Of a DNA stretch of 64,000 nt, positions 10,109 through 45,909 are shown one piece after another (the first letter of the stretch is position 1; every line of letters starts with the position of its first letter). The notes beneath the pieces were generated by a model, which made no database searches, had not been told where the DNA came from, and saw nothing but the letters and a program-made list of their open reading frames with translations. The stretch comes from Staphylococcus debuckii (GTDB lineage: Bacteria; Bacillota; Bacilli; Staphylococcales; Staphylococcaceae), in NCBI RefSeq assembly GCF_003718735.1, contig NZ_CP033460.1:2627851-2691850 (forward strand), given 5' to 3'. The translations under genes were made by a program, and so were the position numbers.

Positions 10109-11477
10109 TTAATTAATGCCTTCCATATCAATACCTGTATCTTTTTCACGTTTTTTCTTTTCTTGCACCCACCATAATGATTCTTTAGGATTGTTGGCTG
10201 CTTTTTCAAAGTCTTCCTCAGTATCAACATTTGGATATGATCCTTTTAAAGACCTGCTGGCAGTATTAGTATGCAAAAAGAAGATAACCAAGAAACCAAT
10301 GATACTAATGGCTGTCAGATAAAACGCCGGCATTAAAGGTAATTGCTAATGTACGATAGCGTATATGTGTAAAGAAAATTGTCGGCAGTGTGCCTGGCAT
10401 CGTTCCTTCGTATGTCGCTAAGAAAATTCCTAAGATTAAAATTCCGATTGCGACCGGCAAAATGGCTTTGAAGTTAATCAACCAGAATGCCAAAATACTG
10501 AAGAGAATCACACCGCTTAAACCAAATAACATTACTTTCTTATCACCAATCTTATCTGCTGTTTTACCATAGAATAATGCTAGCGGAATCATGATCGCCA
10601 TGATACAAGTTATCAAGACGGTTACCATACCATTTTTGACGCCAATCACTTCTTCTAAATAAGACGGCAAATATGAGGTTACCATATAGTTCGTTACATT
10701 AAAGAATACGACCATTACGAAACAAACAATAATGTCTTTGTAATAGAAGCGGACACTTGTCCAAAAGCTGATTTTATCACGTTCGCTTCCACTAGATAAT
10801 TCATTTTCATATATTGGTGTTTCTTGTAAATGTGTTCTTAAGTATAGTCCGACAAAACCTAAAATCAGACCGAAGAAGAAGGGAATTCTCCAACCCCATG
10901 CGGCCATTTGCGCATCTGATAATGAGAAGAATAAAACACCGCATAGTACGGAAGCAGCAATATATCCTGATAAAGTACCGATTTCTAATCCGCTTCCCAA
11001 TGAATTACGTCGGTTATCAGGTGCTGTTTCAGCTACATACACCATAGCTCCTGCATATTCTCCTCCAGTTGAAAATCCTTGGACAACCCTTCCGACTAAT
11101 AATAGAATCGGTGCCCATACTCCTATTTGTCCATACGTCGGCAGACAACCGATCAGTACTGTAGAAATAGCCATCATTACAATTGTGATGGTCAATACAA
11201 TTTTCCGTCCGAATTTATCCCCAATAATACCGAAGACAATACCTCCGACAGGGCGTAATAAAAATGCAATTGCAAACGTTGCAAAAGTAAATACTAATTT
11301 TAATTGATCATTTTGAACATCTGAAAAGAAGTTCTTACTGATGATAACAGCTAAATAAGAATAGAGACCGAAGTCAAACCATTCCATAGCGTTACCAATC
11401 CCAGTTGCGACCACACTCCTCTTAGCCACACTGGCATCCACGCGATTAATTTTGTTTTTAAACGCATGTACTTTCAT
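10109..11477 (-). pseudogene. proP: Broken ProP-type MFS transporter (internal deletion with frameshift)
   Basis: An intact N-terminal part (codons 1 to about 378) has the MFS start [19 protein letters not shown] and the [18 protein letters not shown] loop motif of the proline/betaine/shikimate MHS family. It stops in frame soon after YRTLAITFN. The expected C terminus continues in another frame from about 10330, as [20 protein letters not shown] to the end. Compared with staphylococcal ProP, about 26 residues (one membrane segment) are missing at the join near 10305-10335, and the frame is lost. The start ATG is crowded by its SD. The product, if made, would lack the last membrane segments. 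Confidence 0.85.
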
Positions 11478-11815
11478 CTCCTCTACGTTTAGTGATAAAA
11501 CATATGTAATTATATACCACTATTCAAAAGTATCAAACAACAACTTTTCAAAAATACAATAATTAACATTTTTAACGATTTTGTAGTTTTCGTGGCTAAA
11601 TTTACAAATAAGTTGTGGTTATAAAAATTTGCGTAAGAGGAGATTGTGTACAATTTTTGAAGATAATAATAATTTTTTATAGCAAATCGATCGATAAAAG
11701 CTATGACATATTCTGTCGTCCTCTTTGAGAAAAAGTTAAAAAAAGAGCGTAAAGTTCATCATTTTTATAAAATTTATAATAATTAAAAATAATATACTTG
11801 CACTATGGATAGTAG
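11478..11815. other. AT-rich intergenic region
   Basis: Between the proP start and the toxin promoter. It is very AT-rich and shows no open frame with an SD. It must hold the proP promoter (minus strand), which I cannot place with confidence. Confidence 0.4.
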
Positions 11816-11821
11816 TATAAT
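11816..11821 (+). promoter_or_regulatory. -10 element of the type I toxin gene
   Basis: TATAAT, placing the transcript start near 11828, at the foot of the 5' hairpin. The -35 is poor (TATACT at 17-base spacing; a TTGCAC lies too close). Confidence 0.5.
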
Positions 11822-11829
11822 AATAAGGT

Positions 11830-11876
11830 CGCTATCATATATAGCGCAATCCTCCGCAAAGGAGGTGATGCGCTAT
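11830..11876 (+). promoter_or_regulatory. SD-masking 5' leader switch of the toxin mRNA
   Basis: ATAGCGCA (11841-11848) pairs with TGCGCTAT (11869-11876) and CCTCC with GGAGG (11851-11855/11861-11865), hiding the SD and the first bases of the start codon. The same ATAGCG can instead pair with CGCTAT at 11830-11835, which would free the SD. A 5' stem-loop hiding the SD is the hallmark of Fst-type toxin mRNAs. Confidence 0.75.
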
Positions 11877-11985
11877 GGCTGATATTTTCATCAGTGCTTT
11901 AATTACGACGCTATTTTCCACAATTAGCGGTTGTGTTATCGCATTGTTCACGCATTGGTTAAGCGAAAAACATAAAAATAAATAA
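11875..11985 (+). CDS. Small membrane toxin of the Fst/PepA1 type I family
   Basis: A 36-codon gene giving a peptide that begins MADIFISALITTLFSTISG. It has a single membrane segment (about residues 4-27), then HWLSEKHKNK. The SGCxxAxF...WLS pattern followed by a polar, basic tail is that of the Fst/PepA1 (SprA1) toxins, which insert into the membrane. The SD is a full AGGAGGTG, seven bases from the ATG, and is sequestered (see the leader entry). A convergent antisense promoter and a shared terminator lie downstream. It has the complete layout of a chromosomal type I toxin-antitoxin locus; toxicity itself is inferred. Confidence 0.88.
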   Translation: MADIFISALITTLFSTISGCVIALFTHWLSEKHKNK

Positions 11986-12015
11986 TTAACCAACACCTGT
12001 AGATACATAGAAATA

Positions 12016-12050
12016 ACCCCATTCATTATGGCCTTAATGAGTGGGGTTTG
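12016..12050. terminator. Bidirectional terminator of the toxin/antitoxin pair
   Basis: ACCCCATTCATTA/TAATGAGTGGGGT stem (one G-T pair) with a short loop, between the converging toxin and antisense transcripts. In Fst systems this shared hairpin is where the two RNAs first pair. Confidence 0.82.
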
Positions 12051-12080
12051 GTGTGTCATTTTTTACGACTGATATTTTAT
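12016..12080 (-). ncRNA. Antisense (antitoxin) RNA of the type I locus
   Basis: Predicted transcript from the promoter at 12087-12115 to the shared terminator, about 65 bases, close to the size of RNA II of pAD1 (66 nt). Its 5' end would carry the complement of CTGATATTTT (12069-12078). That sequence is repeated exactly at the start of the toxin coding region (11879-11888), so the RNA could pair with the toxin mRNA at the translation start as well as at the terminator. Confidence 0.75.
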
Positions 12081-12086
12081 AATTTT

Positions 12087-12115
12087 ATTATACAGAAGAC
12101 TCCTTTATTATGCAA
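12087..12115 (-). promoter_or_regulatory. Antisense RNA promoter
   Basis: On the minus strand TTGCAT (12110-12115), 17 bases, TATAAT (12087-12092). The consensus -10 and ideal spacing make it much stronger than the toxin promoter, as expected when the antitoxin RNA must be in excess. Confidence 0.8.
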
Positions 12116-12190
12116 CCAATAATCACAGATACTCGGCTATAACTTGAAAAATAATTTCAGCTTAGTCAACCATGATTTAATAAATGAAAA

Positions 12191-12252
12191 AACACTCTTG
12201 AGACAGAGAGACATAAAATAACTCTTACTTCCGTCTTCTCTCCCAAGAGTGT
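12191..12252 (-). terminator. Terminator of the folE2 operon
   Basis: ACACTCTTG...CAAGAGTGT outer stem with further pairing of AGAGAG/CTTCTC types inside, ending in a T run on the minus strand. Confidence 0.75.
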
Positions 12253-12264
12253 GATATTTTAGCT

Positions 12265-13143
12265 TTATTTTCTATATTTTAATTTTGCGAATGCATCATG
12301 TTGATGAATAGACTCTTCATTGCGGCATTCTATATCAAAGCCTTCTGTCCAATCTAATTCAACTAAATCAGCTGCAATCAAACGAATTAAATCTTCGACA
12401 AAGCGCGGATTTTCGTAAGCGCGTTCTGTTACTCTTTTTTCATCTGGACGTTTTAAAATCGGATATAAAATAGAGCTGGCATTCGCTTCCATAGCATCTA
12501 AAATAATTTCTTTATAATCTGTCGGTAAAGTTGCTGAAGGATCGATGTACATCTTCACAGTAATGACACCGCGTTGGTTATGTGCGGAATATTCGCTGAT
12601 TTCTTTCGAACATGGGCACAATGTAGTAACTGTGGCTTGAATTGTCAATTCTTTACGTGTCACTTGATTGCCTGCTACAGCTAAGCCATATGTTACGTCC
12701 GCGTTGCCTACCGCTTTCATATTAGTAACTGGACTATAACGATTGAAGAACCATTTGCCAGATACATCTACGCCTGCTGAACTTTGCTTCATGTGTTTTT
12801 CTAAAGTATGCAAAACAGCTTCTAAATTATTAAATGTCAGTTCTAATCCATTGTCATAATGTTTCTCAACACTTTCTAAGATACGGCTCATGTTGATACC
12901 TTTTTCTTCACGAGTCAGACTTGTGGAGAAAGCGAAAGTACCTGCTGTTTGATAATCATCTATCACTACTGGATAAACTAAATTTTTAATTCCTACTTCT
13001 TCAATTTCGAATAAAAAATCTTTATGTGTACTTTGTAAATCGGTCATTTCTTCTTTTATAGTAGGCTTTGTACCTTCGATTGGATCAACAGAACCGAAGT
13101 GTCTCCAACGACCTTCACGTGTTGTTAAATCAAATTCACTCAT
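12265..13143 (-). CDS. folE2: GTP cyclohydrolase FolE2 (type IB)
   Basis: Converts GTP to 7,8-dihydroneopterin triphosphate, the first step towards folate, and is the metal-flexible alternative to FolE. The 292 residues include the family motif [17 protein letters not shown] near residue 145-160 (catalytic Cys and His) and end with [16 protein letters not shown]. The ATG at 13143 has a GGAGG SD; the longer frame upstream has none. It follows bshB2 by 16 bases, so the two are cotranscribed. Confidence 0.95.
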
Positions 13144-13159
13144 CTGTGTGCGCCTCCAC

Positions 13160-13825
13160 TTATGATTCAAATTTATATGTCCAATAGGCTTCTTGTTCTA
13201 AAAAACCTTTGGCTTCGTCTGGCACTTGCGGTTCTGCTAATTGTTGCAAGAACGGACCAGACTGTGATGCATGTGCTTTAAATGCGTTTAATTTCATTTC
13301 TTTGTACTCGCTGATGTCATTGACTACGTCAGGTTCCCCTAATTCTTCAATAGCATCATTGCTGAATGCGACCAGTTGCAAACGTGGTCTTTCATCTTCT
13401 GGCATACGGCCGACTGTGCGGATTACCGCATCTGCAGTTGCTTCATGATCAGGATGTACCGCATACCCTGGATAAAATGAAATAATTAATGAAGGATGAA
13501 GCTCTTCAATTAAAGACTGCACCATCCCATCAATTTTTTCATAAGGTTCGAATTCTACTGTTTTATCGCGATACCCCATCTTGCGTAAATCTTTGATACC
13601 GATTGCTTTCGCAGCTTCTTCCAATTCACGTTCACGAATTTCCGGAAGTGATTCTCGTGTCGCAAACGGTGGATTCCCCAAATTACGGCCCATCTGACCG
13701 AGTGTCAAACAAGCATATGTTACAGGCACGCCATTATCGATATAGCGCGCTAATGTTCCTGCTGATGAGAACGTCTCATCGTCAGGATGCGGAAAAATAA
13801 CGAGTACTTGGCTTTCCTCTGACAT
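13160..13825 (-). CDS. bshB2: Bacillithiol biosynthesis deacetylase BshB2
   Basis: A 221-residue LmbE/PIG-L-fold zinc deacetylase. Metal-binding motifs are PHPDDE (residues 12-17) and HPDHE (near residue 123). BshB-type enzymes deacetylate GlcNAc-malate in bacillithiol synthesis; the B2 form (YojG) is also tied to bacillithiol-conjugate hydrolysis. The pair with the yojF homologue directly upstream is the standard yojF-yojG arrangement. AAGGAGG SD. Confidence 0.92.
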
Positions 13826-45572: not shown

Positions 45573-45909
45573 TCAGACACCTCCATATTAATTTAGTTCG
45601 GTGCTTTTCATTTGGTTTACCCCAATAAAAAAAGCACTTTCACCCTACGGCAAAAAGTGCTTGAAAGTTTATCATAGATCACGTTCAAGTCAATTTTAGC
45701 CTCGGTAGGATATAGATTTTAAGTTATTTATTAACTCCTACTGTCTTAGGTAAAATAATCACATTAACCAATATAACGGTTTAGATGTGATATGTCAATA
45801 TGTTTTAAAAAACTAGAGAAAATAATTTCAAGTAAGTGCAGATTCAAATCAATTCGTTCGGCACGTCACATCTTGTTATTTTCTCTAGTTCATTCATTTC
45901 AGTTATATA
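45573..45909 (-). promoter_or_regulatory. rplJ-rplL leader (L10-type) with attenuator
   Basis: About 335 bases between rplA and rplJ. It holds an intrinsic terminator AAGCACTTT (45632-45640)/AAAGTGCTT (45654-45662) followed by T on the minus strand, before rplJ. An upstream segment CTTTCAAGCAC can compete for the hairpin. Autoregulation by L10(L12)4 binding this leader is known for the family; the fold here is inferred. Confidence 0.7.

Follow-up and report, generated by a model that had tools for sequence, protein, structure and literature searches.

Type I toxin-antitoxin loci of the Fst family follow a layout that has already been described (Weaver 2020, PMC7472228). In the par locus of the Enterococcus faecalis plasmid pAD1, which encodes Fst, there are convergent promoters, a shared terminator and direct repeats, together with a 5' stem-loop (5'-SL) over the Shine-Dalgarno sequence (SD) and a 5' upstream helix (UH) (PMC7472228). 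SprA1/SprA1AS and SprA2/SprA2AS of Staphylococcus aureus, which encode PepA1 and PepA2, have a cis-encoded antisense RNA whose 5' domain pairs in trans at the ribosome binding site and start codon (PMC6393315). The family is recognised by a tryptophan between the transmembrane (TM) helix and the charged C-terminus and by a (P/D/S/T)xxxG(C) motif in the TM segment, the glycine of which is reported to be essential in Fst(pAD1) (PMC7472228). Expression of Fst(pAD1) and PepA1 (PMC7472228), and also of PepA2 (PMC6393315), is toxic, and the functions of the chromosomal members are still obscure (PMC7472228). Fst loci are widespread and built to a known plan, but few tests were found of how type I modules that are nearly identical avoid silencing one another, namely for SprA1/SprA2 and pAD1/EF0409 (PMC7472228, PMC6393315). 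The poorly conserved DRa and DRb presumably explain specificity (PMC7472228).

The DNA analysed is a stretch of 64,000 nucleotides of Staphylococcus debuckii (hereafter the window), in which an easily missed 36-codon membrane peptide gene of the Fst type had been proposed from the letters alone. The gene itself was confirmed: its product, MADIFISALITTLFSTISGCVIALFTHWLSEKHKNK, reaches 37.7 bits (cut-off 26) with the NCBIfam model NF033608 (type I toxin-antitoxin system Fst family toxin), and its best match among solved structures is PepA1 (4b19; E 0.0017). By inspection, the peptide carries the Fst motif residues S15-T-I-S-G19-C20 and W28, and, as judged from hydropathy averages, it has a single hydrophobic TM segment (19-residue mean of up to 2.07, at residues 4-22). 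The Pfam Fst model PF13955 leaves the toxin under its cut-off (12.8 versus 36), and a comparison of the locus with Rfam gave no match at or over a gathering score. The label "easily missed" does not hold, because an ORF that passes NF033608 is caught wherever that model serves annotation. Elsewhere in the window, the sole Rfam match over the gathering score is a ribosomal protein L10 leader (RF00557, 86.6 bits) at 45619-45768 on the minus strand.

We put the probability that positions 11793-12115 form a chromosomal Fst/PepA1-type (par/SprA1) type I toxin-antitoxin locus at about 90%. In the mechanism that we propose, a weak promoter would give a toxin mRNA whose leader folds with SD and AUG paired, and a convergent promoter would give a short antisense RNA, overlapping the mRNA in the terminator region and able to base-pair through its 5' end with the start codon and codons 2-5. 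Such pairing, together with pairing at the terminator, would then block ribosome loading, and loss of the unstable antisense RNA would allow the small membrane peptide to be made. The family membership of the ORF, the two repeat copies, the folding of the leader, the conservation and the joint repeat change in a sister species come from the sequence or from computation. By analogy with described members, we infer transcription, instability of the antisense RNA, the translation block and membrane toxicity. The features of the locus are collected in Table 1.

Table 1. Observed and predicted features of the locus, in window coordinates
Feature	Position	Strand	Basis or remark
Predicted toxin promoter: -10 TATAAT 11816-11821, weak -35 TATACT 11793-11798, spacer 17	11793-11821	+	score 9/12
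Toxin mRNA leader, putative start near GUCGC	11828-11874	+	over 11823-11874, identical to the sister locus L034 at 50/52 positions
Upstream helix (UH): CGCUAU 11830-11835 / AUAGCG 11841-11846	11830-11846	+	folding, pair counts; equilibrium probability ~1e-4
5' stem-loop: CCUCC 11851-11855 pairs SD GGAGG 11861-11865	11840-11877	+	lower stem 11840-11848/11869-11877 pairs whole AUG
Shine-Dalgarno AGGAGG	11860-11865	+	sequence
Fst-family toxin ORF, 36 aa	11875-11985	+	NF033608, PepA1 match
Direct repeat copy 1 (antisense target)	11879-11888	+	exact sequence; pairing with G-U extends over 11874-11888
Terminator-like stem, shared	12002-12057		core 12015-12048, loop 12029-12034; outer helix on sense strand
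Predicted antisense RNA antitoxin, ~65-70 nt	12010-12080	-	placed from -10 position and terminator stem
Direct repeat copy 2, 5' end of antisense RNA	12069-12078	-	pairing block 12064-12078
Predicted antisense promoter: -10 TATAAT 12092-12087, weak -35 TTGCAT 12115-12110, spacer 17	12087-12115	-	sequence, scoring

Compared with SprA1 and SprA2, the peptide shares the core ISGC...WLS in an alignment with PepA1, but its N-terminus is longer, its leader hairpin places CCUCC opposite the SD and holds the AUG in its lower stem, and its repeat lies mostly in codons 2-5. Unlike pAD1 par, the locus is chromosomal, has a cysteine after the motif glycine as in staphylococci, and shows, by eye, only one clear repeat pair and no clear U-turn in the terminator loop.

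For family-wide comparisons, we used 133 loci (127 of the genus and 6 of the same order), drawn from part of the matches listed: 184 profile hits in 162 loci were reduced by 51, of which 35 were without an SD-supported start and 16 were near an end or duplicates. The Pfam model served only to fetch loci and was rejected as a census tool; with the limit set at E<=1, matches turned up in 7 of the 14 control genomes (0 over the cut-off) and in 38 of 60 relatives (7 over the cut-off).

The SD had been predicted to be hidden in a 5' stem-loop, and the computed folds agree: the fold energy of the 51-nt leader is -21.6 kcal/mol (z -4.07), which none of 200 shuffles attains, and the predicted paired probability is 1.00 for the SD and 0.97 for the AUG. 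Pairing of the SD at >=0.9 is found in 92/133 loci. A leader with the AUG also in the stem is not unique to the window: a paired probability of >=0.9 for the SD together with the AUG is seen in five of the 133 loci, the window and its sister locus L034 included. A three-way switch, CGCTAT (11830) / ATAGCG (11841) / CGCTAT (11871), had further been suggested to time toxin translation. Its elements are present, and in minimum free energy (MFE) folds of the growing chain, assuming a start at 11828, the upstream hairpin CGCUAU/AUAGCG is present up to nucleotide 11869 and is replaced by the long stem-loop from 11873-11877 on. At equilibrium, the mean pair probability of the upstream hairpin is ~1e-4, and forcing it costs 7.3 kcal/mol (-19.3 versus -26.6). 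The CCUCC/GGAGG helix is closed in both predicted states; thus, the switch could delay but not release translation, and the folding models make it plausible as a matter of folding order.

The leader covariance search proposed with the original prediction was weakly positive. In hand-picked columns, pair counts exceeded all of 500 shuffles that ignore relatedness, with 84.3% paired versus a shuffle maximum of 81.1% for the UH, 75.3 versus 72.3 for the inner SL and 80.9 versus 78.8 for the outer SL. An alignment of 118 distinct leaders shows a like competition, in which 5' CGCC pairs with GGCG versus GGCGUC with GACGC, and changed pairs occur as CACC/GGUG, CGUC/GACG and, in the window, CGCUA/UAGCG. 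Relative to the pair most common in the family (CGCCU/AGGCG), inspection and counts show two pairs of the window UH (CGCUA/UAGCG) altered on both sides. An RNAalifold consensus over the same 118 leaders was useless.

Two -10 TATAAT boxes are arranged convergently, but both -35 elements are poor, and the promoter scan lists neither promoter. The antisense promoter, described as nearly perfect, matches TTGACA at only three of six positions with its TTGCAT and reaches a best total of 9/12; at this score both promoters are near shuffle level. Across the 133 loci, the mean best score of the antisense promoter is 9.2 versus 8.3 in their shuffles, and scores >=10 occur in 25.6% of the loci versus 7.1% of the shuffles. 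Counted without a shuffle control, an exact antisense TATAAT lies 60-180 nt after the stop codon in 114/133 loci, and an extended toxin -10 (TGnTAwAmT) is found in 109/133, whereas the window is without the TGn extension. The weak promoters and the missing extension would fit a decaying, poorly functional Fst locus that inherited its layout and whose toxin is weak or unexpressed. We consider this unlikely, because the ORF, the SD and the leader are intact, and it is taken up again with the sister locus.

A shared terminator had also been proposed. The strong stem at 12015-12048 was found (z -4.98 for a 72-nt sense stretch and -3.78 for the antisense stretch), but the terminator scan lists it on neither strand; a U-run directly follows the stem on the sense strand only if the outer 7-bp helix (12002-12008/12051-12057) forms, and the U tract after it on the antisense strand is weak. 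If transcription starts ~7 nt after the -10 box, the antisense RNA would be ~65-70 nt long, close to the 65 bases anticipated. In addition, the UH arms form a terminator-like site when read on the minus strand (11846-11830); transcription arriving from the direction of folE2 could be stopped there.

The exact 10-base repeat that was held to let the antisense 5' end pair with the toxin translation start is present: CTGATATTTT occurs at 11879-11888 and 12069-12078, these are its sole copies in the window, and none is found on the minus strand of the whole window. The match extends to 15 G-U-tolerant positions across the start codon, from the base before the AUG. Within the 133 loci, the repeat joins the start region to a segment downstream of the stop codon; the mean cognate score is 24.1 versus 12.4 for non-cognate combinations, and 117/133 loci reach or exceed the non-cognate 95th percentile (19). 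Judged by these sequence scores, the start-codon repeat is the rule of the family. At a peptide identity of 0.7-0.8, non-cognate combinations average 13.8 versus 22.2 for cognate ones, and 5% of foreign segments are as good. Cognate pairing is not unique, as the own antisense is the best or tied-best in only 56/133 loci and near-identical loci share addresses; by duplex energy, an average of 3.3% of foreign segments match the cognate level.

The repeat score of the window tops all 132 foreign segments (best foreign 14.5). Its cognate duplex energy, -22.1, is the third weakest of the 133 and is equalled by 16 of the 132 foreign antisense segments, a weakness that would again fit decay. Paired with the two further Fst loci in the same genome, the window gives scores of 11.5 and 10.0 versus a cognate 22.0, and duplex energies of -19.4 and -20.0 versus -22.1. 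Contiguous pairing therefore separates the loci of this genome clearly, whereas duplex energy does not. These two loci (G000:C1:2504760-2504843 and 644836-644910; L280 and L281, also L002 and L003) have different start-codon repeats.

It could be argued that a chance ORF and a chance repeat in AT-rich intergenic DNA account for the locus, since the promoter hexamers are near shuffle level and the score of the repeat block alone is equalled by 2 of 3000 dinucleotide shuffles. The family HMM match over its cut-off, the leader z-score and the syntenic ortholog with co-changed repeats described below contradict this explanation and render it extremely improbable.

The locus is flanked by an MFS transporter gene (10305-11477) and folE2 (12265-13170), both on the minus strand, with bshB2 beyond folE2. 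By eye, an inverted repeat ACACTCTTG...CAAGAGTGT at ~12186-12255, beyond the folE2 stop codon, is perhaps the folE2 terminator. In the host genome (2.69 Mb, one contig), this locus is one of three Fst matches over the NCBIfam cut-off; the same search gave a match over the cut-off in 1 of the 14 control genomes. Peptide matches at E<=0.01 were found in 82/84 genus genomes, the own genome included. Phage matches are few and weak (5 records); of the many plasmid relatives (472 records), none reaches 80% identity.

In a survey of all 84 genomes, with a shorter downstream stretch in G103 (410 bases) and G092 (contig end), seven have an Fst locus convergent with folE2 within ~0.7 kb: the host genome (G000), the genome of a sister species (G015) and the more distant G028, G083, G089, G098 and G099. 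The further folE2-adjacent loci L273, L274, L277, L278 and L279, like that of the window, are convergent with folE2, and their motifs start 235-661 nt from its stop codon. The start-codon repeat is visible in the L273, L274, L278 and L279 stretches, as in the window, but these loci differ in peptide N-termini and leaders, and L277 is without an SD leader. The folE2-adjacent loci may be one old locus or repeated insertions. L277 (G098) is an Fst-type core that looks disrupted at its 5' end.

In two close genomes, G013 and G068, folE2 is 97% identical to that of the window and the transporter gene and folE2 are neighbours as in the window, but there is no counterpart of ~11680-11990, which contains the toxin promoter, leader and ORF (L245 and L246; also L275 and L276). 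On our reading of the alignment, the terminator stem, repeat copy 2 and the antisense-promoter region are kept there in eroded form. The toxin half is thus absent in 2 of the 4 closest genomes examined. If the toxin does harm when its antitoxin is missing, the toxin half would be expected to go first; alternatively, the other lineage may have gained it. The absence of the toxin half would fit decay. It is tolerated in both relatives, which would also fit a membrane peptide with a regulatory rather than a toxic role, still under antisense RNA control, for which the obscurity of chromosomal functions (PMC7472228) leaves room. Given that the tested members Fst(pAD1), PepA1 (PMC7472228) and PepA2 (PMC6393315) are toxic on expression, we hold a regulatory role to be even somewhat less likely than decay.

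The syntenic counterpart in the sister species, L034 (G015), is intact and lies in a conserved neighbourhood. With gap columns left out of the aligned positions, the two DNAs are nearly identical on the transporter side (354/361) and beyond the antisense promoter (145/146; 22 gap columns), and also in the leader (50/52), the 3' UTR (28/29) and the antisense promoter region (12081-12118; 37/38, with 48 gap columns that represent an insertion in L034). The toxin promoter (29/33), the terminator stem (31/34), the spacer (14/17) and codons 8 to stop (77/90) are somewhat more changed. By comparison, the repeat copies are jointly identical at only 21/36 positions, and both are altered: the start codon with codons 2-7 at 11/21 and repeat copy 2 at 10/15. 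In post hoc Fisher tests, 21/36 differs from the flank (145/146) with p ~2e-11 and from the leader, codons 8+, 3' UTR, terminator and antisense promoter together (223/243) with p ~1e-6. The two copies in L034 are nevertheless still matched to each other (TGTGTTTGAAATGTT / TGTGTTTGAAATATT). Cross-pairing of window and L034 gives scores of 10.0 and 9.0 versus cognate values of 22.0 and 23.0, and duplex energies of -10.7 and -18.7 versus -22.1 and -23.2. The antisense -35 region CCTTTATTATGCAA is present in two copies in L034 (~1720-1800) and in one copy in the window.

Among the changed codons, 5 are non-synonymous and 1 is synonymous in codons 2-7, versus 5 and 8 in codons 8-36; the start codon is ATG in the window and GTG in L034. 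The L034 toxin has an aspartate at the motif glycine that is reported to be essential in Fst(pAD1) (PMC7472228), so a relaxed constraint on this toxin is possible. Both the aspartate and the GTG start would suit a decaying locus, but the near-identity of the leader and the joint change of both repeat copies are unlike plain decay. We retain the reading of an intact-looking, correctly recognised chromosomal Fst member, with putative expression, repression and toxicity. Of the evidence for a genuine and selected antisense pairing, the concerted change of both repeats is the strongest; it leads to the prediction that the antitoxins of the two species do not serve each other's toxins.

A general hypervariable address across the family was not borne out. 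The 131 loci usable for this test (133 less 2) gave 52 disjoint closest pairs, in which the conservation of codons 2-7 (mean 0.91) is not significantly below that of codons 8+ (mean 0.95; Wilcoxon p=0.07), and a strong hot spot is limited to the window/L034 pair and a few others. In the same 52 pairs, codons 2-7 and repeat copy 2 co-diverge (rho 0.51), and the divergence of codons 2-7 shows no significant correlation with that of the antisense upstream region (rho 0.19).

The plan of the family is already known, and the locus would be ordinary if the family assignment alone held. What appears to be new here is the concerted repeat change relative to L034; no report of such change within the first codons of a toxin was found in the literature searched, which mostly excludes subscription papers, and we do not claim that none exists. 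We tentatively suggest, with rather more doubt than confidence, that the antitoxin recognition sequence lies inside the first codons of the toxin and is selected to change, so that an RNA "address", not peptide function, would set the toxin N-terminus and prevent cross-silencing among co-resident Fst loci. The window and L034 offer a natural before/after comparison, with the greatest change at the matching repeats, and together with the two genomes without the toxin half they would make address evolution and the order of module loss directly testable.
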